From positions 1 through 64,000 of the IMG/VR virus record IMGVR_UViG_3300025093_000018: a stretch of 64,000 nucleotides of DNA. One strand, written 5' to 3'. The position numbers and the translations under genes are program-made. Of the stretch, positions 49,578 through 64,000 are shown piece by piece. Source of the stretch: a virus. Numbering within the stretch: the first letter of the stretch is position 1; each line of letters starts with the position of its first letter. The notes under the pieces are model-generated. The model saw nothing but the letters and a program-made list of their open reading frames with translations, made no database searches and was not told the origin of the DNA.

Positions 49578-49581
49578 ATTG

Positions 49582-50524: not shown

Positions 50525-50564
50525 AATTTTTTATTTAAAATATTAATTAATATTGTTTATACGA

Positions 50565-50596
50565 CTAAAGAATACAAAAATTTATCGTAAATACAA
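50565..50596 (-). promoter_or_regulatory. Weak promoter candidate for the 144/148-residue genes
   Basis: TTG, 19 bases, then TATTCTTTAG on the minus strand. Spacing fits the Bacteroidetes form, but the -7 box has an extra base. It lies in the only gap of this gene pair. Confidence 0.35.
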
Positions 50597-50625
50597 GGTT
50601 AATTACAAACTATTTAATTTAAGTA

Positions 50626-52890
50626 TTATTTATAAGGTAATAGATTACTCTTTTTTACTGAGTTTGTTTTAAATTCTGGTAATGTATAAGCATTTCCAGT
50701 CTTTAAATAATCTTGTAACTGGGTAAACTTCTCTTTAATCTTGGTATCTTTTAAATATACTTCTCTAGCTTTAGGCCAATATCTAGCCTTTTCAAACTCT
50801 TCTTCAGTTCCTTCAAACATTAATCCCCTGATCTGTCCATCTATCCAATTCTCTTTAAACTGCTCTTTACCATCTCCCTCTCCATAATCTTCCTTAGACA
50901 TTTCCCAATCACGCTCAAAATCTCCTTTATGTTTTTCCAAGAAAGCATCCTCAAATTCTTTTCTATGTTTTTTGTACACTTTATCACTAGTCATACCATG
51001 CATCATATCTAACATGATAGACTGCTCGTTGTTAGTTTTAGGGTCATAGACTATACCATGAGTACCAGGTTTAGGGTGATCATATGAATATCCACTATAA
51101 TAAGTTACTTTTTCTCGTCCTTCTTTAGGACTGAAATACTCTATACTACCAACACCAGTCTTATCTCTTGTGAACTCTGGGTCAGATTTTATAGTAACTT
51201 CACCCATGTTTTTAAATGCTGGATATTTATTATAGATGTTATCAAGCATTACCCCACCTTGTTGATACTTCAATAACACTCCTCCATTCCTTTTTGATTG
51301 TATTGATACAGCTCCAGATACTCCCACCAAAGGTGTTGTAGTGTAAACAGCATTTAAAAACTGTTTTAGGTCTTTTTTATCTAAATTCACTACTAAATTA
51401 GTAATATCATTTGGTAAATCTCCTCCTATTCTACTGCTAGATTTTAATTGATCAATGGCTGCATCAGATATATCCCCACCACTCCATAAGCCCTTTTCTT
51501 TTAGATAGGATAGAGCTCTAACACCTCTAACTTGTTGTTCTGGTTTTTTATTTAAATATTCTATTGTACGAATAACTTGTGGATTATCAGATTGTTGTCG
51601 TATAGTTTTAAAAGGTATCCCTTTCATACTATAGTCAATATTATACGTATTTGAGGCGTGTATAAATTCATGGTTAGCTATATTACTTAACTCCTTATTA
51701 TTAACGTTTTTATCTATACCTAACCAAACATGCGGGTTTTCATCTATAGTAGAAGAAAATCCTAACTGTCTAGTATCTACCCCGGTCATATCTTTATACG
51801 TAACTTCAGTTTTATTTAACTTATGTAAAGCTATTGCTCTAGCTCTCTTAGCATCAGCCTTACTTTCTTTGGCTACAGACATTCTACGTTTTAACCATTC
51901 ATCTGATTTTAACCAATTTTCTTGTTCTTTAAATGCTTTTTGTACTACCTCCAAATTCTTCTTACTTGGTATCACAGTAGGTGTGTTTAATAAATCTTTC
52001 TTTTTATATAATTGCTTATTTATAATATGTTGTTGTTTATCTTTTGGAGACTTTTTAACTATTTCCCAAAACTCTCTATCTTTTGATGTTAATAATTTAA
52101 TTTTATCATTTGATAATTTTAATATATCATCAACTGACTTAATATTATTAGTATTTGTATTTAAAGCGTCATATACATTTTTTACACTACCATCCTGATT
52201 ATAATGTATAGTTCTCTTTGTATCTATCTTTGCTTTACCTTCTGGGGATAAAAAAGAATTAAATATTTCCTCTTCTTTACTATAAATCGGTTTCTTTTTA
52301 GATAAATAAGGTTCTAATTTAGGGTCAAGAGTTGTTTTATTTAGTTTAGGATATATAACTGTTCCTTTATATACTTTAGGTGAAGGGGATTTTCTTAGTA
52401 ATCCTAAACCACTCTTACTTACAGGTTTAACATACTTACCAAGTTTAAGAGTATGCGCTGCTGCACCTATTTCTGGGGCTACAGCAATTACATCTAAAGC
52501 TTGATCAACACCTTCCCAATAAGGGCTCTTAGTGATAGGATTTACATAAGACATTTGAGCGTACATAGCTGAACCTGGGTTTGCGTACATAGTTAAATCT
52601 GCGGCAGTCTTCGCGGTACCTTTTGCTGTCCCTACAGGGTCATCTATAATTCTTGTCATAGAATTAAACGGTGTTATATCACCTAAAAAATTCATAACAC
52701 TATGACCTATTTGATCTAATTCTTCAGTTGTAGACTTAGATTTAACTGTAAATTCTGATAAATCAGGTGCCTGATAAACATCTGTTTTAGGGTTATACTT
52801 AGTTACGGTACCTTTTTTATAAGCTTTTTTATAATCAGAAGTTCCGTATTTAATCCCGCCACCTTTTTGGTATTTTAATAATATACCCAT
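50626..52890 (-). CDS. KYQxGG-type virion protein with HEFIH zincin motif
   Basis: Seven hundred and fifty-four residues starting MGILLKYQKGGGIKYG, with a second copy NGGVLLKYQQGGVML at residues 535-549. A hydrophobic Ala/Gly-rich stretch lies at about 95-150. HEFIH at residues 407-411 (context NIANHEFIHASNTY) is an HExxH zincin motif, suggesting a metalloprotease. The 205 residues after the second motif are acidic and helical and look like a separate module. The gene stands apart from the morphogenesis block, between tRNA clusters A and B. A virion-packaged protease or a maturation target is inferred. Confidence 0.8.
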   Translation of the reverse strand: MGILLKYQKGGGIKYGTSDYKKAYKKGTVTKYNPKTDVYQAPDLSEFTVKSKSTTEELDQIGHSVMNFLGDITPFNSMTRIIDDPVGTAKGTAKTAADLTMYANPGSAMYAQMSYVNPITKSPYWEGVDQALDVIAVAPEIGAAAHTLKLGKYVKPVSKSGLGLLRKSPSPKVYKGTVIYPKLNKTTLDPKLEPYLSKKKPIYSKEEEIFNSFLSPEGKAKIDTKRTIHYNQDGSVKNVYDALNTNTNNIKSVDDILKLSNDKIKLLTSKDREFWEIVKKSPKDKQQHIINKQLYKKKDLLNTPTVIPSKKNLEVVQKAFKEQENWLKSDEWLKRRMSVAKESKADAKRARAIALHKLNKTEVTYKDMTGVDTRQLGFSSTIDENPHVWLGIDKNVNNKELSNIANHEFIHASNTYNIDYSMKGIPFKTIRQQSDNPQVIRTIEYLNKKPEQQVRGVRALSYLKEKGLWSGGDISDAAIDQLKSSSRIGGDLPNDITNLVVNLDKKDLKQFLNAVYTTTPLVGVSGAVSIQSKRNGGVLLKYQQGGVMLDNIYNKYPAFKNMGEVTIKSDPEFTRDKTGVGSIEYFSPKEGREKVTYYSGYSYDHPKPGTHGIVYDPKTNNEQSIMLDMMHGMTSDKVYKKHRKEFEDAFLEKHKGDFERDWEMSKEDYGEGDGKEQFKENWIDGQIRGLMFEGTEEEFEKARYWPKAREVYLKDTKIKEKFTQLQDYLKTGNAYTLPEFKTNSVKKSNLLPYK

Positions 52891-52928
52891 ATCTAGGTAA
52901 TGTACAAAAAATTATTAAAAATATAAAG

Positions 52929-53002
52929 TACTCCCGGTAGGATTCGAACCTGGAACCGTCCCCTTAGAAGGGGGATGCTCTATCCAGTTGAGCTACGGGG
53001 CC
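52929..53002 (-). tRNA. tRNA-Arg(TCT), 3' half mismatched
   Basis: D-stem GCTC/GAGC and anticodon stem TCCCC/GGGGA around CTTCTAA (TCT) are perfect. The outer two T-stem pairs and two acceptor pairs (GGCCCCG against CGGGAGT) do not match. Either degenerate or repaired after transcription. It is the sole tRNA of cluster B. Confidence 0.65.
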
Positions 53003-53005
53003 AAA

Positions 53006-53040
53006 TAAAAAAGCCCCGGAACTTTGTAGTCCGAGGCTTC
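53006..53040 (-). terminator. Terminator or attenuator at the head of tRNA cluster B
   Basis: On the minus strand AAGCCTCGGA pairs with TCCGGGGCTT around CTACAAAGT, then TTTTTT. tRNA-Arg(TCT) begins four to ten bases later, the same arrangement as in clusters A and C. Confidence 0.75.
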
Positions 53041-53076
53041 CTGTTATATATGAATTATTCTTACTTACATATTTAC

Positions 53077-53140
53077 AAATACAGATAGCCGCGGACTCCG
53101 TCTCGAATCGACAGTTCCGTTACTCTTAATGCCTGTATTT
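53077..53140 (-). ncRNA. Structured leader of tRNA cluster B
   Basis: AAATACAG at one end and CTGTATTT at the other form an 8-bp closing stem around about 48 bases that contain CGGAACT/AGTCCG and GTC/GAC pairs with a TTCGA loop. A 30-codon frame (53065-53157) overlaps it and may be chance. Looks like a folded RNA leader or a degenerated tRNA; identity unknown. Confidence 0.4.
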
Positions 53141-53189
53141 ATAATTATTGCTTGCATGTTGATTGCAATATAAATATTAAATTTTAAAC

Positions 53190-53789
53190 CTAAAAGGTCT
53201 TAGAATAATTTTTTAGCTTTTCTTTATCAGAACTTGAAAATTTAGATGAGTAGGTTAGGTTACCTTCTTCGCTCATTATATAATCCTCTGTACCACTATG
53301 GTATAAACCAAATAGATGTCCAAACTCATGTATAATAACCCTTGAACAATCCTTATTCGAATCCTGAAGACTGAGATCTACAAGGGCTACAGCCTTTAAA
53401 GTACCTATACAGTTAGTATGAGCTGCTCCTATAACATCTTCGTCACTTCTACCTGTAATATACAAACTTATATCGGCCCAATTATTAGTTAACCTTTTAA
53501 TAGAGGCTATTACAGAAAGATACGGGTTATAATCACTACCTCCATATGTAAAGGTAGAAATTTTAAAGTGGATGCCTACTTGAGCATATACATTATTAAC
53601 GTGGATCATAATCTCTTTAAGATCACTATAAGTTTTACTGGATGTGGTATCTACAAAGATATTTACGTTATAATGTTGGGTAGCTACTAACTCCTGCGCA
53701 TTAGATTTCAACACAGGATCAATTTTATATTGCCCTAGTAATGTAAAGCTGCAAACAAATAAGGCTAAAAATAATAAAAGTTTTTTCAT
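53190..53789 (-). CDS. Secreted metzincin metalloprotease
   Basis: One hundred and ninety-nine residues. Residues 1-20 are a classic signal peptide (MKKLLLFLALFVCSFTLLGQ). The zinc site HEFGHLFGLYH at about residues 153-163 is a full HExxHxxGxxH metzincin motif, and DYIMSEEG shortly after supplies the Met-turn. The body before it resembles a small matrixin-like catalytic domain without a propeptide. It would act outside the cytoplasm on protein substrates. It stands alone between tRNA clusters B and C, unlike its neighbours in function, so it may be a host-interaction cargo gene acquired by transfer. A role in the virion is less likely because of the signal peptide. Confidence 0.85.
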   Translation of the reverse strand: MKKLLLFLALFVCSFTLLGQYKIDPVLKSNAQELVATQHYNVNIFVDTTSSKTYSDLKEIMIHVNNVYAQVGIHFKISTFTYGGSDYNPYLSVIASIKRLTNNWADISLYITGRSDEDVIGAAHTNCIGTLKAVALVDLSLQDSNKDCSRVIIHEFGHLFGLYHSGTEDYIMSEEGNLTYSSKFSSSDKEKLKNYSKTF

Positions 53790-53827
53790 AATTTAAATCA
53801 TATTTACATTCTCATAGTACTAAGGTA

Positions 53828-53854
53828 ACACTTTTTATTTGAATAAAAAAGTGT
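53828..53854. terminator. AU-rich bidirectional hairpin after tRNA cluster C
   Basis: ACACTTTTTATT and AATAAAAAAGTGT pair nearly perfectly. It lies just after tRNA-Gln and before the metzincin gene, and could end the tRNA transcript in either direction. Confidence 0.5.
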
Positions 53855-53859
53855 AATTG

Positions 53860-53930
53860 TTACCAGGAGAGGATTCGAACCTCTACCTTCTGGACCAAAA
53901 CCAGACGTCCTGCCATTAGACCACCCGGCA
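53860..53930 (-). tRNA. tRNA-Gln(TTG)
   Basis: Acceptor TGCCGGG/CCTGGTA, anticodon stem TCTGG/CCAGA around TTTTGGT (TTG) and T-arm AGAGG TTCGAAT CCTCT. CCA not encoded. Last gene of cluster C. Confidence 0.9.
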
Positions 53931-53936
53931 ATTTTG

Positions 53937-54009
53937 TGGACGAGGGCGGATTCGAACCACCGACGCTAGGCTCTTCAGGCCCACGCTCTACCAACTGAGC
54001 TACTCGTCC
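53937..54009 (-). tRNA. tRNA-Phe(GAA)
   Basis: Acceptor GGACGAG/CTCGTCC, D-stem GCTC/GAGC, anticodon loop CTGAAGA (GAA) and T-arm GGTGG TTCGAAT CCGCC. CCA not encoded. Confidence 0.9.
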
Positions 54010-54016
54010 AGTTTAG

Positions 54017-54104
54017 GGTGTACGATGGGATTCGAACCCATGACGTGTCACTAACCGTACCGGGACCACAACCCAGCGCCTTCGACCGCTTGGCTACGCA
54101 CACC
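54017..54104 (-). tRNA. tRNA-His(GTG) with long variable arm
   Basis: Acceptor GTGTGCG/CGTACAC with an encoded extra 5' G facing discriminator C, the mark of histidine tRNA. Anticodon stem CTGGG/CCCGG surrounds TTGTGGT (GTG). The variable region is 18 bases (ACG/CGT stem possible) and the D-arm GCC...GGC looks like a class II tRNA, unusual for histidine. Confidence 0.8.
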
Positions 54105-54110
54105 ATGTAG

Positions 54111-54192
54111 TGGGACCGGGAGGACTCGAACCTCCAAGCCGTTAGGACCCGGGTTACAACCGGGGACGCTACCAATTACGCTCTACGTTCCC
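54111..54192 (-). tRNA. tRNA-Tyr(GTA)
   Basis: Acceptor GGGAACG/CGGTCCC (one mismatch), anticodon stem CCCGG/CCGGG around TTGTAAC (GTA), variable arm of about 12 bases and T-arm GGAGG TTCGAGT CCTCC. Confidence 0.85.
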
Positions 54193-54283
54193 ATATTATA
54201 TACGATCACATATAATCCCCGATATATCAGGTAATTTTATAATATTATACCCGCTATAGCATGGTTTTATATGTTTTACATAT

Positions 54284-54305
54284 ATTATACCCTAATAGGT
54301 ATAAT
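54284..54305. repeat. Hairpin in the tRNA-Ala to tRNA-Tyr spacer
   Basis: ATTATACC and GGTATAAT flank a six-base loop. The 113-bp spacer is almost pure A/T otherwise and holds no gene; this may be a processing site for the tRNA precursor. Confidence 0.45.
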
Positions 54306-54308
54306 TTG

Positions 54309-54382
54309 TGGAGCTACCGGGATTCGAACCCGGAACCTCTTCCGTGCAAAGGAAGCGCTCTTCCAGTTAGAGCTACAGCCCC
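54309..54382 (-). tRNA. tRNA-Ala(TGC)
   Basis: Acceptor GGGGCTG/TAGCTCC, D-stem GCTC/GAGC, anticodon stem CTTCC/GGAAG around TTTGCAC (TGC) and T-arm CCGGG TTCGAAT CCCGG. Confidence 0.9.
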
Positions 54383-54387
54383 ATATG

Positions 54388-54461
54388 TAGCGGGGGCGAG
54401 ATTCGAACTCGCGTCCTTCGGGTTATGAGCCCGACGTCCTAGACCCCTAGACCACCCCGCT
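54388..54461 (-). tRNA. tRNA-Met or Ile2 (CAT)
   Basis: Acceptor AGCGGGG/CCCCGCT, anticodon stem TCGGG/CCCGA around CTCATAA (CAT) and T-arm GCGAG TTCGAAT CTCGC. Sequence alone does not tell methionine from lysidine-modified isoleucine use; the A1-U72 pair makes an initiator possible as well. Confidence 0.85.
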
Positions 54462-54464
54462 AAG

Positions 54465-54537
54465 TCGAGTGAGCTGGATTCGAACCAGCGAATTCGTGCT
54501 CCCAAAGCACGCCCGTATAGCCTCTGCGTACCACTCG
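54465..54537 (-). tRNA. tRNA-Pro(TGG)
   Basis: Acceptor CGAGTGG/TCACTCG, anticodon stem CGTGC/GCACG around TTTGGGA (TGG) and T-arm GCTGG TTCGAAT CCAGC. First tRNA of cluster C, about eight bases after a hairpin with a U-tract. Confidence 0.9.
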
Positions 54538-56363: not shown

Positions 56364-56642
56364 TTAAATCCTATATTTATCCCATTTTGAATCAATATCG
56401 TCTTCTTGATCTGTAATTTTTATAGATCTTTGATCACGAAGTCCTTTATTAATTATTTCCTCAGGTTCATTTATAGGTTTGATAAAATCTTGCTGAATGT
56501 CGGTATTCGGTTCTGACTCTTGAGATTTGGCCGGCCCAGATTCATCATACATTTCAATATCGTCATCATCATCACTATGTAAGTCATCTAAACCACTTGA
56601 CTCTTCACCTTTATCTATGTCATCCCAATCTTTAAAATCCAT
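56364..56642 (-). CDS. Acidic protein with scaffold-like LHSDDDD motif
   Basis: Ninety-two residues, highly acidic and probably disordered. GLDDLHSDDDDDIEMYDE at about 17-34 repeats the N-terminal motif of the scaffold-like protein 16 kb away. It starts two bases after the 90-residue gene. It might compete for or recruit the same partner as the scaffold; that is inference. Confidence 0.7.
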   Translation of the reverse strand: MDFKDWDDIDKGEESSGLDDLHSDDDDDIEMYDESGPAKSQESEPNTDIQQDFIKPINEPEEIINKGLRDQRSIKITDQEDDIDSKWDKYRI

Positions 56643-56644
56643 AA

Positions 56645-56917
56645 TTAATCTTTTAGTTCATATGTTATTTGTTCCAGGTGTTTAAAATCTTTTATATCCG
56701 CTAAATTAATTCTAACTAACGTGCTACAGGATGCAGCTACATTACATACTTTACCTACCTCTAAAGATACTTCAATTTCTACATAATCCACAGCCTCGTC
56801 AAAGGTGATCTTCATCTTATTTATACTGCAAATTAATTTGGTTGGGTCGTCCTCCGGACTGAAGACGAAATTCTTTGGTAAGCCATCTAAGTATTCATAT
56901 ACTTCTTCTATTGTCAT
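56645..56917 (-). CDS. Small hypothetical protein, first minus-strand gene
   Basis: Ninety residues, mixed alpha/beta (EVYEYLDGLPKNFVFSPEDD, then DYVEIEVSLEVGKVCNVAAS). No recognised family. It is the gene closest to the divergent control region on the minus side and heads the small-gene set. Confidence 0.7.
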   Translation of the reverse strand: MTIEEVYEYLDGLPKNFVFSPEDDPTKLICSINKMKITFDEAVDYVEIEVSLEVGKVCNVAASCSTLVRINLADIKDFKHLEQITYELKD

Positions 56918-57398
56918 ATTATTCTTATCAAGTGATTTAATTTAATTATCAAATCGACTACATACCTAATATAGTGATTTATAACGAAATAACCATGGGT
57001 ATGCTAAAGTAACACTATGTATGTTATACAAGAATCTTCTCTGTTAGTTTTCTGATATACAGGTACTTATATACAAACCCCCGCCCTTTATATTAAAGAG
57101 GTACTTTATATAATAACCCCCATCGAATTATATTATAGCATGTTAGGAGGTATAAAGAGCTTGTATAGTATGTGACAAGGTGGCAGGAACGTGACAAGTT
57201 GACATAAATAAGGAAGGGGTGGGGCTAATCTTACAACCTCCCCGGCTAAGTTTCAGTGGGAAAACAATATATATTGAACTTCGATTTATATTTTGGAAAA
57301 CTCCAATCCCAAATTAAATTGCTAAATAATTAGCATTTGTTTCAACAACCCGATAACGGTGTGGGTGCTCATATACATGAGTTTTGGCCGTCTTTGTC
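56918..57398. promoter_or_regulatory. Divergent control region between minus and plus gene blocks
   Basis: About 480 bp without a gene. It holds a hairpin TTATATTAAAG/CTTTATATAA (57087-57112), the direct repeat GTGACAAG (57172 and 57192), a TAATCTT stem-loop (57226-57260), the palindrome CAATATATATTG (57266-57277), TGCTAA/TTAGCA (57320-57335) and CTCAT/ATGAG (57368-57381). No match to TTG-N19-TAnnTTTG was found on the plus side. Probably a bidirectional promoter zone, perhaps with a replication role. Confidence 0.6.
57226..57260 (+). ncRNA. TAATCTT stem-loop, copy 1
   Basis: TAATCTTAC is followed 19 bases later by GCTAAG and then AGTGGG. CCC/GGG and CTAA/TT(C)AG can pair. The order matches copies at 58166 and 58813. 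This copy precedes the first plus-strand gene instead of following one. Confidence 0.5.
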
Positions 57399-57818
57399 AT
57401 GAAGGAGAATTTAAGTAAGGTTTCAGACTACATCAGAGCAATCTCTGAGCATTTTAACCATGACCCTAAGTATATAACTCTGCGTGTGCTGGTGGGTAAT
57501 ATGCATTTTGACGGTAGTGTGAGTGAGTCTGGTATGAAGGTTATCAAGGCTATGAAGGCTCTAAGCCCTGAGGATCATGTTGTTTCTCATATTTACAATG
57601 AGCTTGATATGATCAGGATGGGTGCTGAGTATGAAGCTAGTATTGTTAAGGAGCCTGTTATCATAGGTCGTATAGATCTTGATAATGAGGTTAAGGAGCA
57701 AATAGCTCTTGAGGTTGCAGAGGATAGGGCTAACATGCCTGATATGAACCCTGGACCACAGGAGCATTGTCCTGAATGTAGAGAGATGATAGTGTTGGGT
57801 CATTGCAGATGCTTCTAA
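57399..57818 (+). CDS. Small protein with C-terminal zinc-knuckle-like Cys/His motif
   Basis: I choose the ATG giving MKENLSKVSDYIRAI (139 residues); an upstream TTG would add five. The N-terminal two thirds are helical. The C-terminus EHCPECREMIVLGHCRCF has four Cys and two His (CxxC...HCxC), very likely a zinc site. No family is recognised. First gene of the plus block, so probably early expressed. Codon use favours GAG, AAG and CTT, different from the minus-strand genes. Confidence 0.75.
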   Translation: MKENLSKVSDYIRAISEHFNHDPKYITLRVLVGNMHFDGSVSESGMKVIKAMKALSPEDHVVSHIYNELDMIRMGAEYEASIVKEPVIIGRIDLDNEVKEQIALEVAEDRANMPDMNPGPQEHCPECREMIVLGHCRCF

Positions 57819-57831
57819 TAATTTATTAACT

Positions 57832-57851
57832 TGCCGGAACTAGTGGCGGCA
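57832..57851 (+). promoter_or_regulatory. Intergenic hairpin before the 99-residue gene
   Basis: TGCCG and CGGCA enclose ten bases and end 14 nt before the next ATG. It has neither the GAAA loop nor a TAATCTT box, so it stands apart from the two hairpin families. Confidence 0.4.
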
Positions 57852-57865
57852 CTCTTGATTGAGTT

Positions 57866-58165
57866 ATGGCTAGAATTATCATGGCGAAGGCTTTGATTAG
57901 TGGTGTTGTGACTAAGGTCAGTTTATTCACACAGAATGAACCACCGCGTTTTGTTGACATGCCTGTCAGGTGTGTGTCAGTTTATAAGGGGAAGTCTGAT
58001 CTTCTTATAAATACTAGTGACTTGAACGATGAAGCTATTGCTTATATCACTAAGCATGCTTTAGACAGTCAAGTTGAAATTGTAGGACTTGGTAGTCTTA
58101 CAAGAGTAGTATTTGCTCCGGCTGATGGCGTTGTTATGGGGTTTGGCGCTGATGTTATCCCTTAA
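57866..58165 (+). CDS. Small hypothetical protein, plus block
   Basis: Ninety-nine residues, beta-rich with alternating Val/Ile/Leu (ISGVVTKVSLFTQNEPPRFV, then VEIVGLGSLTRVVFAPADGV), possibly an OB-like or small barrel fold. An internal ATG at 57881 is an alternative start. It ends in TAATAATCTT, directly entering a stem-loop and the hammerhead ribozyme. Function unknown. Confidence 0.7.
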   Translation: MARIIMAKALISGVVTKVSLFTQNEPPRFVDMPVRCVSVYKGKSDLLINTSDLNDEAIAYITKHALDSQVEIVGLGSLTRVVFAPADGVVMGFGADVIP

Positions 58166-58203
58166 TAATCTTTCAACTACCCTGCTAAGATTTAGTGGGG
58201 TAG
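58166..58203 (+). ncRNA. TAATCTT stem-loop, copy 2, abutting the hammerhead
   Basis: TAATCTTTC, then CTACCC-TG-CTAA-GAT-TTAG-TG-GGGTAG. The CTACCC/GGGTAG and CTAA/TTAG stems are exact. There is no U-tract; the last three bases (TAG) are also the first three of the ribozyme stem III. Confidence 0.6.
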
Positions 58204-58256
58204 CTGTCTACAGATGTGTGTCTGTACTGATGAGTTCCAAAAGGACGAAACAGCTA
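58201..58256 (+). ncRNA. Type III hammerhead ribozyme
   Basis: All core parts are present. Stem III is TAGCTGT/ACAGCTA (7 bp) and the cleavage triplet GTC ends at 58208. Stem I is TACAGA/TCTGTA with loop TGTGTG. The core CTGATGA spans 58227-58233. Stem II is GTTC/GGAC with loop CAAAA, and the core GAAA spans 58247-58250. This matches the known hammerhead consensus without a single core deviation. Self-cleavage would separate the mRNA of the 99-residue gene from that of the 172-residue gene, leaving a 38-nt leader after the core. Hammerheads are known from phage genomes; this location between small plus-strand phage genes is the notable part. Confidence 0.93.
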
Positions 58257-58293
58257 ATTTAATAGGTGATGACTTACCATCGAAATTCATGTT

Positions 58294-58812
58294 ATGAAAA
58301 TGTATTCAATCTACCTACGGGGTTCAGAAGGACAGTACGAACACGTAGGCGCAGTAGATGCGACAAATCTTGAAGAAGCGTTTGTAATGACGCAAAATAT
58401 TGATGAGCGTCCTAACGCTTTAGGCAATTGTAGAAGTACATCAGTTGGTGATATCTTTGTTGAATTTGACTTAGACTCACAGGAACCAATACCTTACAAG
58501 GTAGAGGTGACTGGGTTTAGTATTTCTGATGTAGATCCTAGTGCTCCTGGTAGACACTATTTCCAAGAGAAGATGACAGAACAAATGTGTGCTCCTGCAC
58601 CTAGTTATGTTATTAGTTTCGAAGGAGTAGATGTTGAGTTAGAAAGTGCTAGAGATCTTATACCAACAATTGTTAAGTTATTACCATTGTATGATGATGA
58701 TACTAAATTCGAAGTAATCCAAGTAATTGGTAACCAAGAAGGTATTGTTGCACAAGGGTATGGAGAAGAAGTATTACCTAAAGTAGCTCAATACATCTTT
58801 GAAAACTACTAA
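58294..58812 (+). CDS. RSTSVGD-motif protein (YodL-like?)
   Basis: One hundred and seventy-two residues. The N-terminal 75 read MKMYSIYLRGSEGQYEHVGA, ATNLEEAFVMTQNI and CRSTSVGDIFVE, a pattern I associate with small mobile-element and phage proteins carrying R.tSVGDvi (YodL-type domain), function unclear. The C-terminal part (YVISFEGVDVELESARDLIP) is a separate alpha/beta segment with an acidic stretch. Its mRNA would begin at the hammerhead cleavage site. Family assignment is tentative. Confidence 0.7.
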   Translation: MKMYSIYLRGSEGQYEHVGAVDATNLEEAFVMTQNIDERPNALGNCRSTSVGDIFVEFDLDSQEPIPYKVEVTGFSISDVDPSAPGRHYFQEKMTEQMCAPAPSYVISFEGVDVELESARDLIPTIVKLLPLYDDDTKFEVIQVIGNQEGIVAQGYGEEVLPKVAQYIFENY

Positions 58813-58856
58813 TAATCTTATATCCACCTAGCTATTTTATAGTTGGGTGGATTTAT
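58813..58856 (+). terminator. TAATCTT stem-loop, copy 3, terminator-like
   Basis: TAATCTTA, then ATCCACC-TAG-CTAT-TTT-ATAG-TTG-GGTGGAT followed by TTATT. Same plan as copy 2 with a different stem sequence, which indicates that structure is conserved. Begins inside the tandem stop of the preceding gene. Confidence 0.65.
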
Positions 58857-58871
58857 TACTAATTAATAAGC

Positions 58872-58883
58872 CCTGGAAACAGG
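58872..58883 (+). promoter_or_regulatory. GAAA-tetraloop hairpin H1
   Basis: CCTG-GAAA-CAGG, nine bases before the ATG at 58893, flanked by AATAAGC and CAATATAAA. One of four copies in the plus block whose stems change in a compensatory way. Confidence 0.7.
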
Positions 58884-58892
58884 CAATATAAA

Positions 58893-59105
58893 ATGAAAAC
58901 ATCGTTAAAAATATCCAAGAAACATTTACTGTACTTAATAGACCTATGTATAACATTATGTGGATACACAGTGACATTAGGCTTAGGTAAAATGAATGAC
59001 AACCCTTACTACAAAAGCTATTACATATCTCTTCACAATAAGAAAGGACATACAATAGCTGAGTGCGGGAGAACTAATAAGTATAAACAATTACTAAATA
59101 AATAA
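58893..59105 (+). CDS. Small hypothetical protein, plus block
   Basis: Seventy residues, basic (MKTSLKISKKHLLYLIDLCI), with a short hydrophobic patch at about 12-30 and a hydrophilic end. It starts nine bases after hairpin H1 and is followed four bases later by the 185-residue gene. No family recognised. Confidence 0.65.
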   Translation: MKTSLKISKKHLLYLIDLCITLCGYTVTLGLGKMNDNPYYKSYYISLHNKKGHTIAECGRTNKYKQLLNK

Positions 59106-59109
59106 AACA

Positions 59110-59667
59110 ATGAACAAAAAAGAAATAGTAACTATGCTACAATTTGCAGTAGACAATACTGCTGCAAGAAATCCTGCTTTGACTAAGGACGTAGCGGACA
59201 GAATTTACAGTCTAATTAATGATGACTATATGGAGCCAAACTATAGTTCTGCTAGCCGGATTCTAAAGGTTAACATGTCTATGAACTTTGGTAGTATAGA
59301 AATCCAAACAGTTGATCATCTTGATCAAGATGGTGGTGATGTACGTGAGGGTGAAAGAGTAAGTGTTGAAGGAACAAGCACTGTTATCTATTTTGGTGAA
59401 AAAGGTAAGAAAGGACCTGAACCATACAATAGACAAGGTGTGCAATACATACCACTACAGTGGTCAAGCCTTGAACTTGTAGATGAGAGAGAAGAGTGTG
59501 ATGTGTATGCTACACTTCCTATGAAATGTAATACATCAATAGAAATAGGAAGGTTCAACTACAACGATCACTGGAATACAATAGAATTCACTATAGTTGT
59601 TGAGCAATTTAATAAAGATGATTTCATCAATGAATTGTTCGAAATACTACAGTATTCTAACAAATAA
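59110..59667 (+). CDS. Hypothetical protein, plus block
   Basis: One hundred and eighty-five residues. An N-terminal helix pair (EIVTMLQFAVDNTAARNPAL) is followed by a beta-rich middle (VNMSMNFGSIEIQTVDHL) and an amphipathic C-terminal helix (FNKDDFINELFEILQYS). No motif is known to me. Probably co-transcribed with the 70-residue gene; ends before a strong terminator. Confidence 0.7.
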   Translation: MNKKEIVTMLQFAVDNTAARNPALTKDVADRIYSLINDDYMEPNYSSASRILKVNMSMNFGSIEIQTVDHLDQDGGDVREGERVSVEGTSTVIYFGEKGKKGPEPYNRQGVQYIPLQWSSLELVDEREECDVYATLPMKCNTSIEIGRFNYNDHWNTIEFTIVVEQFNKDDFINELFEILQYSNK

Positions 59668-59674
59668 AATAAGT

Positions 59675-59712
59675 AGGGCAAGGTAATCTTATCACTACCT
59701 TGCTCTATTTTA
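59675..59712 (+). terminator. Terminator with TAATCTTA in the loop
   Basis: AGGGCAAGGTA and TACCTTGCTCT form an 11-bp stem; the loop contains ATCTTATCAC, and ATTTTAA follows. The TAATCTTA box here lies partly in the loop instead of before the hairpin. Confidence 0.75.
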
Positions 59713-59730
59713 ACCTTTAATTAATAAAAT

Positions 59731-59742
59731 CCTAGAAATAGG
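59731..59742 (+). promoter_or_regulatory. GAAA-tetraloop hairpin H2
   Basis: CCTA-GAAA-TAGG, nine bases before the ATG at 59752, with the same flanks (AATAAAAT before, TAATATAAA after). Stem differs from H1 by a G-C to A-T pair change. Confidence 0.7.
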
Positions 59743-59751
59743 TAATATAAA

Positions 59752-59865
59752 ATGAAAAAGTTATTAAGTAAAATCGTAAGTCTCCTAGTAATGACACCTA
59801 GAGAGAACAGATTGGTAAGAGTGTCAGCGTTAATGATAACAGGTCATAGACCACAAAACAAATAG
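59752..59865 (+). CDS. 37-residue basic protein
   Basis: MKKLLSKIVSLLVMTPRENR... is short, basic and amphipathic. The start has the same AATATAAAATGAAAA context and hairpin spacing as the 70-residue gene, which supports translation. The next gene's ATG follows two bases after its stop. Function unknown. Confidence 0.6.
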   Translation: MKKLLSKIVSLLVMTPRENRLVRVSALMITGHRPQNK

Positions 59866-59867
59866 TT

Positions 59868-60323
59868 ATGTTGGTAGAGATAATAAAAGATGACGAAGGA
59901 TGTCCAATCCTTTTAGAAGATGGTAAGAGGGTAGATTCTCATACTATAGCAACTAGTAGAGGGGATTACATAGGTAAATCAGCTTATATGTTATTCCGAA
60001 GATATGGGTGGGGATGTAAAGGTAAACTTACAGGTCCTGCTGAGGATTGTAAAGAAATAGATGCTGAATTACATGAAAAGTATTTCACTATTAATGGTGA
60101 AGATGCTTCTAAGTATGTTATTCATTTACCTCCGAGTTTAGCTAATTTAAATTGTAGAATAGCTAGATTGCATGGGTATGAGTATTATAAAGAGTTAATT
60201 AAAGCTGGATTTACAGAGTATTTCTCAGCTACTACTGCTTATAACTACGGACTACTGCTTGCAAACCCGGATAAAGAAGAAATCTTCGACATCTTAGGTA
60301 TAAAATCAAAAACTAATTATTAA
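59868..60323 (+). CDS. Hypothetical protein, plus block
   Basis: One hundred and fifty-one residues, alpha/beta (MLVEIIKDDEGCPILLEDGK, then YIGKSAYMLFRRYGWGCKGK). The end is helical (ADKEEIFDILGI-like). The N-terminus has a strand-turn-strand with HTIATSRGDYIG. No family recognised. Followed by hairpin H3 and a perfect terminator. Confidence 0.7.
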   Translation: MLVEIIKDDEGCPILLEDGKRVDSHTIATSRGDYIGKSAYMLFRRYGWGCKGKLTGPAEDCKEIDAELHEKYFTINGEDASKYVIHLPPSLANLNCRIARLHGYEYYKELIKAGFTEYFSATTAYNYGLLLANPDKEEIFDILGIKSKTNY

Positions 60324-60333
60324 TTAATAAAGT

Positions 60334-60345
60334 CCTGGAAACAGG
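60334..60345 (+). promoter_or_regulatory. GAAA-tetraloop hairpin H3
   Basis: CCTG-GAAA-CAGG after AATAAAGT. Unlike the other copies no ATG follows at 9-10 bases; instead a 13-bp terminator stem begins two bases later. This copy may be orphaned by a deletion or insertion. Confidence 0.65.
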
Positions 60346-60346
60346 C

Positions 60347-60388
60347 AATAAAAGCAAGGTAATCTTACGGGACTGCCTTGCTTTTATT
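60347..60388 (+). terminator. Perfect 13-bp terminator with TAATCTTA in the loop
   Basis: AATAAAAGCAAGG and CCTTGCTTTTATT pair without mismatch, loop of 16 bases beginning TAATCTTACGGG. A-run and T-run on either side make it bidirectional. Confidence 0.8.
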
Positions 60389-60414
60389 AAGTGTCTAATT
60401 TAAAATGAAACAAA

Positions 60415-60630
60415 ATGATAGCACGTATCAACGGTATCGTCATGCCGGTAGTATTTGATGGCGAAAACATAGTAATAGCTCTTGACCCTTCAATTGAGGG
60501 TGACGACCAAAGAGTGAGTATTAACAAGGCAGAGAACGAGGTCGTGTTCACTGAAAACACTCGTTTAACAAAACGACCAAAGAGACGACGCATGAAGCGA
60601 AGTCCTATTAACCTAAGCAGAATAAAATGA
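60415..60630 (+). CDS. Small basic protein
   Basis: Seventy-one residues: a beta-rich N-terminus (MIARINGIVMPVVFDGENIV) and a very basic C-terminus (TKRPKRRRMKRSPINLSRIK), suggestive of nucleic-acid binding. Ends as ATGA overlapping the next gene. An ATG ten bases earlier opens only a 17-codon frame in another phase. Confidence 0.65.
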   Translation: MIARINGIVMPVVFDGENIVIALDPSIEGDDQRVSINKAENEVVFTENTRLTKRPKRRRMKRSPINLSRIK

Positions 60631-61058
60631 AAAGAACATTTGCTCCGCTTGTCCTAATGATGATATTCTCGTTGGGACTAGCACTGACCTCTGTATGTCA
60701 GTCCAAAACTGCAGAAGCTAAAGTAGCTGAAACAGCTGTATTTGATTACGATTTAAATCGCTACTTGAGTAGTAAAAACGGTGAGGTGGATAACCACTAC
60801 ACCGAAGCTGTAATCACTAAAAAGAATAACCTAATGACTTTCAAGATGAAAGTAGGAAAGGATTCTGTACATACAGCTGTATACAAGATCGTTGAACGAA
60901 AGCAGGGTCATCGAGTAATTTTAGCCAAACGTGTTGACACTAAGGCTAAGATAAAGATAATTCAGCGGAAGCACGAGCTCGAAGTACTATGTGACTTTAA
61001 CCGGAAACATAATAGATTCGATGGTGCTATTATATTTACCGATCTTGAATTTAAATAA
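60627..61058 (+). CDS. Secreted or membrane-anchored small protein
   Basis: One hundred and forty-three residues with an N-terminal signal peptide (MKRTFAPLVLMMIFSLGLAL, possible cleavage near TSVCQSKTA; the Cys could also be a lipobox-like residue). The mature part is beta-rich and basic. Overlaps the previous stop as ATGA. An envelope role early in infection, such as exclusion, is conceivable but not shown. Confidence 0.7.
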   Translation: MKRTFAPLVLMMIFSLGLALTSVCQSKTAEAKVAETAVFDYDLNRYLSSKNGEVDNHYTEAVITKKNNLMTFKMKVGKDSVHTAVYKIVERKQGHRVILAKRVDTKAKIKIIQRKHELEVLCDFNRKHNRFDGAIIFTDLEFK

Positions 61059-61065
61059 TGTTTAA

Positions 61066-61088
61066 CCGGGGATCATTTCGGTGGTCCC
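61066..61088 (+). promoter_or_regulatory. Hairpin after the signal-peptide gene
   Basis: GGGGATCA and TGGTCCCC pair over 8 positions (two G-U or mismatched closing pairs) around TTTCGG. It overlaps the possible TAATG-coupled start at 61058 and precedes the ATG at 61106. Confidence 0.45.
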
Positions 61089-61105
61089 CATATTATTTGT
61101 CAATC

Positions 61106-61258
61106 ATGAAAGGATTAACAAAAGAAGAGTTTGAAACAGAGTATATAGCAATAGCTAATACAAACTTCAACTCTAAACCCTGGAAGATAATCGTCCGGGC
61201 CCTCGCTCAAAAAGCTATACAGAGCTCAATGGTTGGGGACAAACTAGACAGTAAATAA
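61106..61258 (+). CDS. 50-residue protein
   Basis: MKGLTKEEFETEYIAIANTN..., a small mixed protein with a helical, basic C-terminal half (IIVRALAQKAIQSSMVGDKL). An in-frame ATG at 61058 overlaps the previous stop as TAATG and would add 16 residues through a hairpin; I prefer the internal start but cannot decide. Ends within TAATAATCTT-like sequence. Confidence 0.6.
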   Translation: MKGLTKEEFETEYIAIANTNFNSKPWKIIVRALAQKAIQSSMVGDKLDSK

Positions 61259-61281
61259 TCTTACTGTCAACCCAGCTTTAA
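61256..61281 (+). ncRNA. TAATCTT element, copy with CCCAGCTTT
   Basis: TAATCTTA then CTGTCAACCCAGCTTTAAT. The CCCAGCTTT part is repeated after the TAATCTTCC copy at 61904, so these two form a sub-group; a stem is not obvious in either. Confidence 0.4.
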
Positions 61282-61312
61282 TTAAGTCAATCAATTGTTT
61301 AACTAATAAAGT

Positions 61313-61324
61313 CCTAGAAATAGG
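61313..61324 (+). promoter_or_regulatory. GAAA-tetraloop hairpin H4
   Basis: CCTA-GAAA-TAGG, ten bases before the ATG at 61335, after AATAAAGT. Same stem as H2, same left flank as H3. Confidence 0.7.
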
Positions 61325-61334
61325 CATTTTTACT

Positions 61335-61820
61335 ATGAGTAAAATCAAGTATTCCAAGAAGAGGTTAACCTCTCAAGCGAGATTGAAGAACTTCATCTCG
61401 AAAATTATCCCTGTAGGGACAGTGTTAATGGTTACTGACCTTATGAAGGGTCACTACGAAGACAACGACGGAAACGAAGTTGCCAACGATGTGATTCTTT
61501 GTCAGGATCCTGATGGTCAAATTCTTAAATTGTCAGTTCGTGAGTTCATGAAGATGACAGTGAAGGATGGTGAGCACTATCAGGGTGAGTCTGACAACGA
61601 TGATATCTTCTTACCTGAGAAGATTGAAATTGTTGCTAGTGAGGACCGAAAAGGTAAGGGCGAGGATGAACCTCGGTACCCTACTTACGCGTACAATGGT
61701 GCGCAAGAGTTCATCGACTCTAAAGGTCAGCTTGATTACGTTGAAACCGTGATTAAGTCTGGGCTAAGAGAAGATAACCCTTTCGACCCACTTCAGAACT
61801 ACACTGTAGTATTGTCGTAA
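61335..61820 (+). CDS. Paralogue 1 of a plus-block protein pair
   Basis: One hundred and sixty-one residues, clearly related to the 163-residue protein that follows. Shared landmarks are MS..KYSKKR, the PVGTVL strand, the NDVILCQDPDGQILKLSVRE segment, DDIFLPEKI.I..SEDR, YPT.AYN.A..F and the C-terminal NYTVVLS. Mixed beta fold. No known family. Codon use is more GC-rich (CGA, GAC, AAG) than in its paralogue. Confidence 0.75.
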   Translation: MSKIKYSKKRLTSQARLKNFISKIIPVGTVLMVTDLMKGHYEDNDGNEVANDVILCQDPDGQILKLSVREFMKMTVKDGEHYQGESDNDDIFLPEKIEIVASEDRKGKGEDEPRYPTYAYNGAQEFIDSKGQLDYVETVIKSGLREDNPFDPLQNYTVVLS

Positions 61821-61827
61821 GACTTAT

Positions 61828-61860
61828 AGCATCTCCGGCTAACCACCGGGGGTGCTTTTA
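61828..61860 (+). terminator. Terminator after paralogue 1
   Basis: AGCATCTCCGG and CCGGGGGTGCT pair over 11 positions (some G-U) around CTAACCA, then TTTTA. The loop side carries CGGCTAAC, echoing the GCTAAG of the TAATCTT stem-loops. Confidence 0.8.
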
Positions 61861-61883
61861 AAAAATTTTGCCAGTAAAAAATT

Positions 61884-61926
61884 TAATCTTCCGATCGACT
61901 ACATAATCTTCCAATCGACCCAGCTT
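61884..61926 (+). repeat. Direct repeat TAATCTTCC(G/A)ATCGAC
   Basis: Two copies of TAATCTTCC.ATCGAC, 20 bp apart, the second followed by CCAGCTTT. A double form of the TAATCTT element in the 180-bp gap between the two paralogues. Probably a regulatory site. Confidence 0.6.
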
Positions 61927-62003
61927 TGCCGTAGGCGCGATGGATTGCAGTAGAAATCGATGTCGCATTAATTAAATTAATTTTATAATTAAAAATAAAA
62001 ATT

Positions 62004-62495
62004 ATGTCAAGAGTAAAATATTCAAAGAAAAGAATGGTAGGTCAATCAAGAACTAGTAACTTGAAATACATGCAACCACTTAAACCTGGAACTGTGTTGC
62101 ACGTTGAAGATACCGTAGAAGGTAGCTTTATTGGACCAAATGGACAGGAAGTAATGAATGATACAATCTTATGTCGTGACGCTGATGGTCAAGCTATCAA
62201 AGTTCCTGTAAGAGAGTATGCAAAAATGGATATCGACGGACAACCTTGGGATTCTGAAGGTGATTCTGATGAAATCTTTTTGCCTGAAAGTATTACTATT
62301 ATCTCATCTGAAGATAGAGTATATACTCCTCAAGGTGGAGAAGAGCAAAAGCTTTATCCAACATTCGCTTACAATGATGCAGAAGCATTTGTAGCATCTC
62401 AAGGTGGAATGGAATTTGATGACTTGGTGAAGTCAGGAGTTAAAGAAGATAACAACTTCGCTCCAGTGCAAAACTACACTGTACAAGTAAAATAA
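62004..62495 (+). CDS. Paralogue 2 of a plus-block protein pair
   Basis: One hundred and sixty-three residues, paralogous to the preceding 161-residue protein (MSRVKYSKKRMVGQ, NDTILCRDADGQAIKVPVRE, DEIFLPESI, YPTFAYNDAEAFVASQ, NYTVQVK). A/T-rich leader without SD or the GAAA hairpin. Duplicated small proteins in early regions often adapt to different partners; no function is known. Confidence 0.75.
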   Translation: MSRVKYSKKRMVGQSRTSNLKYMQPLKPGTVLHVEDTVEGSFIGPNGQEVMNDTILCRDADGQAIKVPVREYAKMDIDGQPWDSEGDSDEIFLPESITIISSEDRVYTPQGGEEQKLYPTFAYNDAEAFVASQGGMEFDDLVKSGVKEDNNFAPVQNYTVQVK

Positions 62496-62681
62496 TGTAA
62501 CACGGGGAGGCTACTGACTCCCCTATACATATTAGATTCATACTTGAAGAAATCTTAAGTTGGTAGAACATAAATCCAATCTCTAAGTAGGTAAGAAATC
62601 ATAGAAATGTCGCCTTAAAGAACATATTATTTGATAATTAGCCGAGTTTAATCACTTGAACTCTTAGGCTTGAATTATATA

Positions 62682-62726
62682 ACCTTATAACCCTTTGGTG
62701 GTATGGATCGAATCCAGTTATAAGGT
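62682..62726 (+). ncRNA. tRNA-like minihelix
   Basis: ACCTTATAAC and GTTATAAGGT are perfect 10-bp complements. Directly inside the 3' strand lies TGGAT-CGA-ATCCA, reading TGG-ATCGAAT-CCA like a T-arm. The result is an acceptor-plus-T-arm minihelix without D and anticodon arms. Confidence 0.55.
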
Positions 62727-62830
62727 CAATAACTATTACTTTTGGTAAATTGTTTATTAATCTGTTGACATAATGGCAGAAATTGCTACGTTTTAGATTG
62801 ATAAATATTAGTTAGGTTGATTGACTGAAG

Positions 62831-62858
62831 GCTCCTGGGTAACACCGGGAGCTTTTTT
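62831..62858 (+). terminator. Strong terminator of the non-coding region
   Basis: GCTCCTGG and CCGGGAGC (one G-U) around GTAACA, then TTTTTT. Confidence 0.85.
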
Positions 62859-62859
62859 A

Positions 62860-63019
62860 ATGACAATCTGGCGGGATTCGGGGGAAATGTCACCCTCTCA
62901 ATTACCCATACAAGCCATTTTGACACATCTGTCAATCTGTCACTTAAATAAAAGTAATAATACTGCACGTCCTTGAGACTTGCTCTTAAAAAATTTAAAC
63001 CAACAAAAACACTATAAAA
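62860..63019 (+). promoter_or_regulatory. Gene-poor stretch with TGTCA repeats
   Basis: Contains TGACA-CATC-TGTCA as an inverted repeat and a further TCTGTCA (62919-62942), a plausible operator. A 38-codon frame starting at 62860 begins in the terminator U-tract and is probably chance. Otherwise A/T-rich leader of the small membrane genes. Confidence 0.4.
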
Positions 63020-63178
63020 ATGAACTTAATTAAAGGAATTTGGACCCTATTTCTTATCAGTTTAATACTATTTTTATGGTGGATAGGTGGTTGGTTATTT
63101 TGGGCCGTATGTATAACAGCTAGTTTTATGTTAGCGTTATTCTTTGTAATAATATATTTATTAAACGAAAATAAATAA
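63020..63178 (+). CDS. 52-residue membrane protein
   Basis: MNLIKGIWTLFLISLILFLW... with two closely spaced hydrophobic segments (about 6-22 and 25-48), almost entirely membrane-embedded, and a short NENK tail. The start has an A-rich context. Followed two bases later by the next ATG, so part of a small-gene run. A small envelope-acting protein is possible. Confidence 0.65.
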   Translation: MNLIKGIWTLFLISLILFLWWIGGWLFWAVCITASFMLALFFVIIYLLNENK

Positions 63179-63180
63179 TC

Positions 63181-63420
63181 ATGAAAAGACCTAGACTAAA
63201 AAATGGTTCACAAATAAACTTAGACTCATTTGTCTTAACAATGGACCAACCAAAAGAAGAGTATAAAAAACCGGATACACTCTGTAAGATCACAGTAGAG
63301 AATATCCGTGAGACCAGAGCTCGACGAATTGCTAATAAATTTATTCCAATATTTTTATCAGAAGCTCGTAAGATTGCTGGACCTAGAAGAATCCTTGAAA
63401 ACCTTAATTATGATTTTTGA
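63181..63420 (+). CDS. 79-residue basic protein
   Basis: MKRPRLKNGSQINLDSFVLT..., basic, with a helical C-terminal part (ETRARRIANKFIPIFLSEAR). Its stop overlaps the next gene. No family recognised. Confidence 0.6.
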   Translation: MKRPRLKNGSQINLDSFVLTMDQPKEEYKKPDTLCKITVENIRETRARRIANKFIPIFLSEARKIAGPRRILENLNYDF

Positions 63421-63550
63421 AGATAATTCTAAACAAAAACCAGTGAAACGCTGGGCAAACGCATTGCTTTCCGCAGTAGTATTTGTGATCGTGTGGTTAG
63501 CATTTTGGTGGTGTGTTAATTCAATTATTTGGTTAATATCATTACTATAA
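63410..63550 (+). CDS. 46-residue membrane protein
   Basis: Starts MIFEDNSKQKPVKRWANALL inside the end of the previous gene, followed by a single hydrophobic helix of about 28 residues (VVFVIVWLAFWWCVNSIIWL). Type of topology: short cytosolic N-terminus, one pass. Overlapping start supports coupled translation. Function unknown. Confidence 0.6.
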   Translation: MIFEDNSKQKPVKRWANALLSAVVFVIVWLAFWWCVNSIIWLISLL

Positions 63551-63619
63551 AGATCGATAAGATGCCCAAGCATGTAAACGCCCTGGTATATGAGATCTGT
63601 AACTATTAAATAAACTATT

Positions 63620-63715
63620 ATGAAAACATTAATTGCATATTATATAGGCTTAGGCATAGGTTGGTTAATGTTTCATCCTGATAGTCCATTTAATAAAACT
63701 AAAACTAAAACTTAG
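63620..63715 (+). CDS. 31-residue small membrane-type protein
   Basis: MKTLIAYYIGLGIGWLMFHP followed by a Lys/Thr tail. One short hydrophobic segment. The A/T-rich leader and the MKT start resemble the other small genes here. Could be real but is near the limit of what can be called. Confidence 0.45.
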   Translation: MKTLIAYYIGLGIGWLMFHPDSPFNKTKTKT

Positions 63716-63732
63716 TAAGACAAACCAATTTC

Positions 63733-63858
63733 ATGCAAAGAAATGGTAGACTAATAACGGGTAGAATAAGATCCAAAGTTATTAATCTTTACTCAAATTA
63801 CGAGACTACGGCGAAGCCGTATCTCTTCATGTGCTTGCCCAGCACTTTAATGAACTAG
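63733..63858 (+). CDS. 41-residue basic peptide gene
   Basis: MQRNGRLITGRIRSKVINLY..., very basic N-terminus. A stable hairpin TACGGC-GAA-GCCGTA (63813-63827) lies inside it, which could also be a non-coding signal. No family. Confidence 0.4.
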   Translation: MQRNGRLITGRIRSKVINLYSNYETTAKPYLFMCLPSTLMN

Positions 63859-63869
63859 TAGATAAATAA

Positions 63870-63995
63870 ATGAGTAGTTATAAGAGACAAGCGGAGAAAT
63901 TCGCTTTAAGGCACCTGTACTCCCAGGTTAAGAAAACAGCCGTAAACATTATTGAACTTAAGGTAGTAATAAAAGGAGAACCCTACCAGTCTTAG
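63870..63995 (+). CDS. 41-residue basic peptide gene near the window end
   Basis: MSSYKRQAEKFALRHLYSQV..., basic and helical. It begins 11 bases after the previous stop. Some likeness in size and charge to that gene, no clear homology. Function unknown. Confidence 0.45.
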   Translation: MSSYKRQAEKFALRHLYSQVKKTAVNIIELKVVIKGEPYQS

Positions 63996-64000
63996 AAGTT

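Follow-up and report, generated by a model that had tools for sequence, protein, structure and literature searches.

In the window, a stretch of 64,000 nucleotides taken from a virus record, a putative hammerhead ribozyme is located in a + strand block of small genes that runs opposite to the structural genes (Table 1). Its placement between two co-directional phage genes, as given in the original prediction, was upheld by the 99-aa and 172-aa open reading frames (ORFs) on either side, the products of which matched no PHROG family at E 0.1 and no Pfam family at E 0.05. An overlapping 49-aa ORF with a TTG start (58113-58262) was judged spurious, and the Pfam match of a 144-aa ORF at 57384 to a clostridial enterotoxin (E 0.043, 13.9 bits vs a cut-off of 25) was taken as chance.

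The terminase, portal, and head proteins of the record match PHROG families, and a further protein of 1869 aa has a Pfam match to the crAss muzzle family (crAss_MUZ, E 2.5e-25). A tblastn search with the terminase matched 74 phage records, all at less than 60% identity (20.6-27.0% among the best 20 of the 74), and eight of the ten terminase-matched records examined are classified in the Crassvirales. Judged by the muzzle family and the terminase, the phage that carries the ribozyme is a crAss-like phage. No relatives of three nearby proteins were found in viral_contigs, and 14 kb compared with annotated phages in a near search gave no match.

Elsewhere in the window, the − strand of 48814-54537 carries eleven tRNA genes according to ARAGORN and twelve tRNA matches according to Rfam, the extra Rfam match lying at 49339-49414. 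In addition, the motif CCTRGAAAYAGGC occurs in an AT-rich context on the + strand at 58872-58884, 59731-59743, 60334-60346, and 61313-61325, with one copy mismatched. These four matches compare with 0.27 expected, three of the copies stand 8-9 bases before an ATG, and a fifth copy with one mismatch is present in the rest of the record (L002, 11734-11746); the motif is possibly a phage promoter or translation leader. In the segment 60333-60390 (+), the copy at 60334 is followed immediately by a long hairpin with a T-rich end and no start codon, which is an unusual order.

Table 1. Positions of the genes and RNA elements at the ribozyme locus.
Feature	Position	Strand	Details
Upstream ORF, 99 aa	57866-58165	+	TAA stop at 58163-58165, then a second in-frame TAA
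Hairpin, 12 bp, loop GAU	58177-58203	+	58177-58188 with 58192-58203; -16.0 kcal/mol, z -3.9 (58176-58208 alone)
Type III hammerhead ribozyme (predicted)	58201-58256	+	RF00008, 47.2 bits, E 1.2e-9; E 9.4e-11 in the record search
Stem III, 5' strand	58201-58207	+	7 bp with 58250-58256
C17, predicted self-cleavage between 58208 and 58209	58208	+	RF00008 alignment position and established hammerhead chemistry
Stem I hairpin	58209-58226	+	58209-58215 with 58220-58226
Loop I, UGUGUG	58215-58220	+	Outer U.G may pair
Conserved core CUGAUGA	58227-58233	+	
Stem II, GUUCC-AAAA-GGAC	58234-58246	+	One extra base; of 85 distinct copies, L005 alone also has it
Conserved GAAA (G12, A13, A14, A15.1)	58247-58250	+	
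Stem III, 3' strand	58250-58256	+	RF00008 alignment
Downstream ORF, 172 aa	58294-58812	+	
Terminator-like hairpin at the next gene end	58822-58852	+	T-rich tail; contrast within the phage to the ribozyme site

Identity and covariation of the hammerhead

In a permissive scan of 251 bases (58100-58350), the Rfam hammerhead model RF00008 was matched from end to end (model positions 1-54 of 54) with zero broken pairs marked. The GUC cleavage triplet, CUGAUGA, and GAAA, which conform to the hammerhead core (CUGANGA ... GAAA with an NUH triplet), and the three stems are all present where they had been predicted, and the predicted cut after 58208 coincides with C17 in the alignment. Stem III ends open whereas stems I and II are looped, as is the case for type III. 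The check with Infernal and Rfam that had been proposed for the element thus yielded a match, albeit at 47.2 bits against a gathering score of 48.5; because the copy is 1.3 bits short, the whole-window Rfam scan at the gathering threshold did not list RF00008 and reported tRNAs alone. The gathering score of RF00008 is a limit set in curation and no property of the ribozyme itself; in all sequence features tested apart from this cut-off, the segment 58201-58256 is a full member of the hammerhead family. Further Rfam matches near the site, to snoRNA and EBv-sisRNA-1, had E values of 2.1 or worse and were taken as chance.

A first pattern search gave seven stretches, comprising L004, L005, and L008 as type III, L003 and L009 as type I, and L006 and L007 as unpaired, to which a further search added L010 as type I; an exact search with the window's own stem I found nothing. 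L003, a virus contig of 5.9 kb, carries three type I hammerhead patterns within 1.7 kb (3094-4771, +). The closest relative is L005 (51.3 bits with RF00008), in which the UGUGUG loop and the GUUCCAAAAGGAC stem II are the same as in the window while stems I and III differ but are re-paired. The 70,543-base virus record of L005, which may be a fragment, showed no match to the window terminase in a search run without a positive control.

The family was then defined by a pattern for loop I and the core, which required CUGAUGAG and CGAAAC and matched 104 stretches in viral contigs (L005 included) and 27 in bacterial genome contigs. Of these, 101 viral loci (103 sites) and 19 bacterial loci (20 sites) passed a pairing test as type III, whereas 3 of the 104 viral and 8 of the 27 bacterial loci failed, L140 being a near miss in stem II; in terms of pattern matches, 13 of 137 were rejected. 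As a consequence of this pattern and test, the conservation of loop I and the core holds by construction and minimal pairing was required, while neither the sequences of the stems nor the stem II loop nor any upstream sequence entered the selection. More distant relatives keep the core, though the pattern itself demanded this. Before counting, one overlapping match was dropped, identical ribozymes were merged (124 sites to 85 rows), and repeated flanks were removed (to 96); the contigs are partly related, so the copies counted do not represent independent events. Judged by title, 15 of the 19 bacterial contigs with a UGUGUG-loop hammerhead belong to metagenome-assembled genomes (MAGs) of a type that we take to be Patescibacteria.

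Among the 85 distinct ribozymes, standard pairs occupy 98.2% of 1275 cells, compared with 66.8% in shuffles, and both sides of a pair have changed in 447 cells, compared with 131. The covariation score is 0.855 vs 0.215 for shuffles and 0.064-0.117 for slid partners. Paired cells make up 100% in stem I, 100% in stem II, and 94.6% in stem III, where the outermost pair is broken in 21 of the 85 copies, and compensatory changes are present in all three stems. That 12 of 15 pairs have changed on both sides is no evidence alone, because 119 of 500 shuffles reach 12. At the cleavage site, position 17 carries C in 69 copies, U in 9, and A in 7. Although pairing is partly by construction, since all rows had passed the pairing test, the ribozyme structure appears to be maintained by selection in these copies. 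The end-to-end model match and this covariation together confirm the assignment of 58201-58256 as a type III hammerhead, and the element looks like a genuine self-cutting RNA.

The same alignment bears on the loops. In the window, stem II can be drawn either with a U.G pair and the CAAAA loop of the original prediction or with an AAAA loop and one bulged U. The pairing as such stands, and the second form is favored because 83 of the 85 distinct copies lack the extra base. Forty-eight of those 83 have a CAAAAG tip, and stem II terminates in CAAAAG in 50 of the 85 with the window and L005 included. Loop I plus its closing pair reads GUGUGUGC in 48 and AUGUGUGU in 37 of the 85, UGUGUG being fixed by the search pattern. 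A ribozyme controlled by an aptamer was rejected, as neither loop I nor loop II is long or varies much (loop I, again, by pattern).

Both RF00008 and R1, a model built from family rows that include the window, find one copy alone in the 80,990-base record; the R1 score of the window, 67 bits, is accordingly high by construction. A paired-core scan of the whole record gave no second hammerhead, and a laxer version gave one weak type II-like pattern (4/3/3 bp) outside the window, which neither RF00008 nor R1 supports. As a random control, 1000 windows of matching composition were generated with a first-order Markov model; they contained 530 loose hits when all types were counted, of which 12 reached 5/3/5 bp or more and one reached 6/4/6 bp or more, compared with 8/4/7 at the window site. 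An inactive relic or chance match is therefore hard to credit: the rarity of such hits, the complete core, the E value of the RF00008 match, the covariation, and the recurring composite architecture described below all argue against it, even though 4 of 18 consensus-fitting hammerheads did not cleave in vitro and 14 were active according to the main text of Perreault et al. (2011; PMC3088659).

The idea that the ribozyme is a trait of the crAss lineage found no support, R1 detecting zero copies in ten terminase-related phage records (eight of them Crassvirales); R1 is tuned to the UGUGUG loop family and could miss other hammerheads. R1 likewise gave no copy in MW202828.1, a phage that shares a homologue of the gene upstream of the L051 ribozyme. 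Four contigs with a close terminase relative (L015-L018) contain no RF00008 match, which is uninformative because, by coordinates, they end before the ribozyme site.

A hairpin abutting the ribozyme

Directly 5' of the ribozyme, a 12-bp hairpin covers 58177-58203, and its last three bases are shared with the outer end of stem III. The hairpin does not have the form of an intrinsic terminator, as CUGUCUAC follows and there is no T-run. Within the same block, hairpins with T-rich tails were found by a terminator scan at two neighboring gene ends (58822-58852 and 61068-61089). The presence of T-rich tails there and the lack of one at the ribozyme hairpin fit the idea of a substitute for a terminator.

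A hairpin at this boundary (score at least 6, gap -1 to 3) is present at 69 of the 96 distinct flanks but in only 73 of 480 mononucleotide shuffles, and the 69 hairpins have 52 distinct 5' arms. The abutting 35 nt have a median folding energy of -12.4 kcal/mol, compared with medians between -3.5 and -4.6 for segments at six control offsets; a z below -2 was reached by 49 of the 96 flanks and by 3 to 15 of 116-119 control segments. By this rule, the remaining 27 flanks (17 of 75 viral, 10 of 20 bacterial) have no hairpin; they include that of L005, the closest relative, where the upstream RNA folds strongly (-21.1 kcal/mol) but irregularly. When gene ends of the viral contigs were compared, 32 of 37 with a ribozyme had a hairpin scoring at least 7, as did 87 of the 375 other tandem ends (Fisher p 2e-14, without correction for relatedness). 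The ribozyme sample was limited to 37 ends by the gene caller, which accepted only tandem genes with ORFs of 70 aa and a gap of at least 40 nt. The bias of the search pattern was checked in the 11 records that have at least two RF00008 matches, where 31 of 32 sites were read; two of these records (G011 and G019) are near-identical at these sites. The hairpin (score at least 7) was found at 12 of 17 sites without the UGUGUG loop I and at 12 of 14 with it.

These data also bear on whether the hairpin could itself be a working terminator, U-tract-independent or factor-assisted, with the ribozyme merely trimming read-through. Terminator-like hairpins are present at other gene ends of the window phage (eight calls on both strands in 56600-64000 vs 3.8 expected), and 64 of the 87 other gene-end hairpins of the viral contigs likewise have fewer than five T in the next eight bases. 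However, a tail of at least five T was found at 0 of the 32 ribozyme hairpins vs 23 of those 87 (p 4e-4), and the window hairpin was not called by the terminator scan. The downstream gene also lacks the short leader motif seen before some other genes, which is a weak point, as the motif is likewise absent before most genes of the block. On balance, a terminator at this position seems improbable.

Folding of 58177-58258 indicated that the hairpin and the ribozyme are compatible (-25.5 vs a minimum free energy of -26.1 kcal/mol), with predicted probabilities of 0.90 for the hairpin and 0.72 for stem III. In longer native stretches, the probability of stem III was 0.10 (58166-58293), 0.02 (57966-58493), and 0.62 (58066-58393), all values referring to a thermodynamic fold that excludes co-transcriptional folding and loop-loop contacts. 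Competition with stem III, as predicted in two of the three stretches, counts against the mechanism proposed below. The same vulnerability to mispairing would be expected if the ribozyme were active and the hairpin were only an insulator that sequesters upstream RNA so that stem III can fold, any protection of the end being a by-product; such a role is also favored by the gap to stem III, which in 64 of the 69 flanks scored is -1 to +1 and so of the size that coaxial stacking would require. Nevertheless, this explanation is unlikely on three counts. Folding of the window phage shows hairpins after several genes that have no ribozyme attached, so that a gene-end hairpin is of some use by itself in this phage. 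Loops of the UUCG or GNRA kind, which are characteristic of very stable hairpins, cap at least 31 of the 69 (the commonest being UUCG with 12, GAAA with 8, and GCAA with 6). Finally, the probability of stem III without the upstream sequence is 0.81-0.96, no lower than with the hairpin.

Gene-independent placement and a possible route to mRNA ends

With the upstream ORF taken as the longest one ending at most 150 nt upstream, 122 of the 124 sites had such an ORF (at least 60 aa long in 92 cases), and a downstream ORF was found at 115 sites (111 of them at least 45 aa). The distance from the stop codon to the cleavage site has a median of 34 nt (quartiles 28-39) and that from the ribozyme to the next start a median of 26 nt (quartiles 21-28), near-identical contigs being kept in; the corresponding values in the window are 43 and 42 nt. 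A cruder gene caller placed 68 of the 124 sites between two same-direction genes and 32 inside an ORF, and we suspect that most of the ORFs containing those 32 sites are false. The flanking proteins form 50 upstream and 69 downstream clusters, some short ORFs among which may not be genes, and the cassette is therefore not tied to one gene. When 20 neighboring proteins were scanned, the families recognized included HNH endonuclease, anti-restriction, and gamma-glutamyl-cyclotransferase. In a Paceibacterota contig (L030), the cassette is located between the gene for an ABC transporter binding protein and a permease gene, the start of which lies 141 nt further on, past a second hairpin-like stretch. 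In L045, the cassette is followed by a gene for an ABC ATPase. These two neighborhoods look cellular rather than phage-derived, although MAG contigs can be misbinned. As far as comparison of sequences can carry them, the ribozyme fold, its coupling to the hairpin, the spacing, the lack of a U-tract, and the independence from particular genes are supported.

Based on these features, a possible mechanism is proposed in which the gene-end hairpin and a constitutive type III hammerhead cut the transcript and make mRNA ends without a terminator, and to this reading we assign a probability of about 0.6. We infer ribozyme activity, co-transcription of the two genes, and a stabilizing role of the hairpin. 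Transcription would run through both the 99-aa and the 172-aa gene, and the ribozyme would cut the phage transcript after C58208. The upstream mRNA would then keep the 12-bp hairpin five bases from its 2',3'-cyclic-phosphate end and would resist 3' exonucleases. The downstream mRNA would begin with a 5'-hydroxyl and the stem I hairpin. In this way the mRNA ends would form without RNA polymerase stopping, so that one transcription unit could yield separate messages. A role as a substitute for a terminator had been offered in the original prediction as a possibility, and at that conditional strength it is now favored by the comparative evidence, namely the abutting hairpin free of a U-tract, the narrow spacing to stop and start codons, the gene-independent placement, and the multiple copies in some genomes.

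Multiple copies could also be read differently. Two to four RF00008 matches occur in 11 of 35 virus records, about 0.3-3.3 kb apart in ten of these and near opposite contig ends in one, and paired copies could release RNAs with 5'-OH and 2',3'-cyclic-phosphate ends for circularization or ligation by RtcB. Such a function is highly improbable for the element described here, as only one copy was found in the window phage, and spliced or circular products could not be detected according to the main text of Perreault et al. (PMC3088659). The recurrence of the cassette after many unrelated genes, in other phages and in some bacteria, suggests a protein-free way of ending mRNAs. Going further, the hairpin and hammerhead may form a self-contained cassette that has spread horizontally among many unrelated phages and Patescibacteria, giving stable 3' and defined 5' ends, without terminator or ribonuclease, and thereby separately stabilized messages; this wider proposal is tentative, and we hold its chances to be slightly below even.

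Relation to known systems and implications

The intercistronic REP elements between malE and malF are stabilizing hairpins, at which the 3' end arises when decay stops. They resemble the cassette in that a hairpin follows the upstream cistron and would block 3' exonucleases, and in L030 the flanking genes likewise encode a binding protein and a permease. The difference lies in the origin of the 3' end, which would be produced by ribozyme cleavage in the cassette instead of by the stopping of decay.

Compared with the type III hammerheads of RF00008, the window copy has the same permutation, core, cleavage triplet, and three stems and matches the whole model. It differs in the upstream gene-end hairpin, in its intergenic setting in a DNA phage, and, together with most of the relatives tested, in falling under the gathering cut-off, which was passed in 3 of the 35 virus records while 32 had a match at E<=0.001. 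Since most copies in the records tested are below this cut-off, routine annotation would miss them.

Processing of mRNA by hammerheads in phages is a proposal of 2011: in their main text, Perreault et al. describe clustered hammerheads that flank prophage genes, propose that long transcripts are processed into mRNAs of single-gene or operon length, and report cleavage of three arrays in vitro, one of them also in E. coli (PMC3088659). The window copy shares with these the location between phage genes, but it is single and resides in a crAss-like phage. The HHphage variant of haloviruses HF1 and HF2, treated in the same text, lies in a phage early-gene transcript, 13 nt upstream of a start codon, and the mapped 5' end is within three nucleotides of the cleavage site; unlike the window copy, it has a variant core with a two-base insertion and belongs to an archaeal virus (PMC3088659). 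The main text of that paper describes no coupled gene-end hairpin under those words, as "hairpin" appears there twice (for stem loops and in a reference title) and "terminator" not at all. In the open-licence literature on hammerheads and phages, the coupling of hairpin and ribozyme was not found, which is weak evidence of novelty; the composite of a gene-end hairpin and a type III hammerhead as a mobile mRNA-end cassette may be new.

A 2017 review calls the role of prokaryotic hammerheads open (PMC6155905), and a 2023 paper notes an enrichment of bacterial hammerheads in the vicinity of particular genes, above all those of Mu-like phages, for reasons unknown (PMC10085705). The recurring cassette, with its narrow spacing to stop and start codons, offers a concrete and testable answer to why phages carry hammerheads, namely that the ribozyme would make mRNA ends that are capped by a stabilizing hairpin. 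If this is true, the cassette would be a natural model for insulating genes within one operon.
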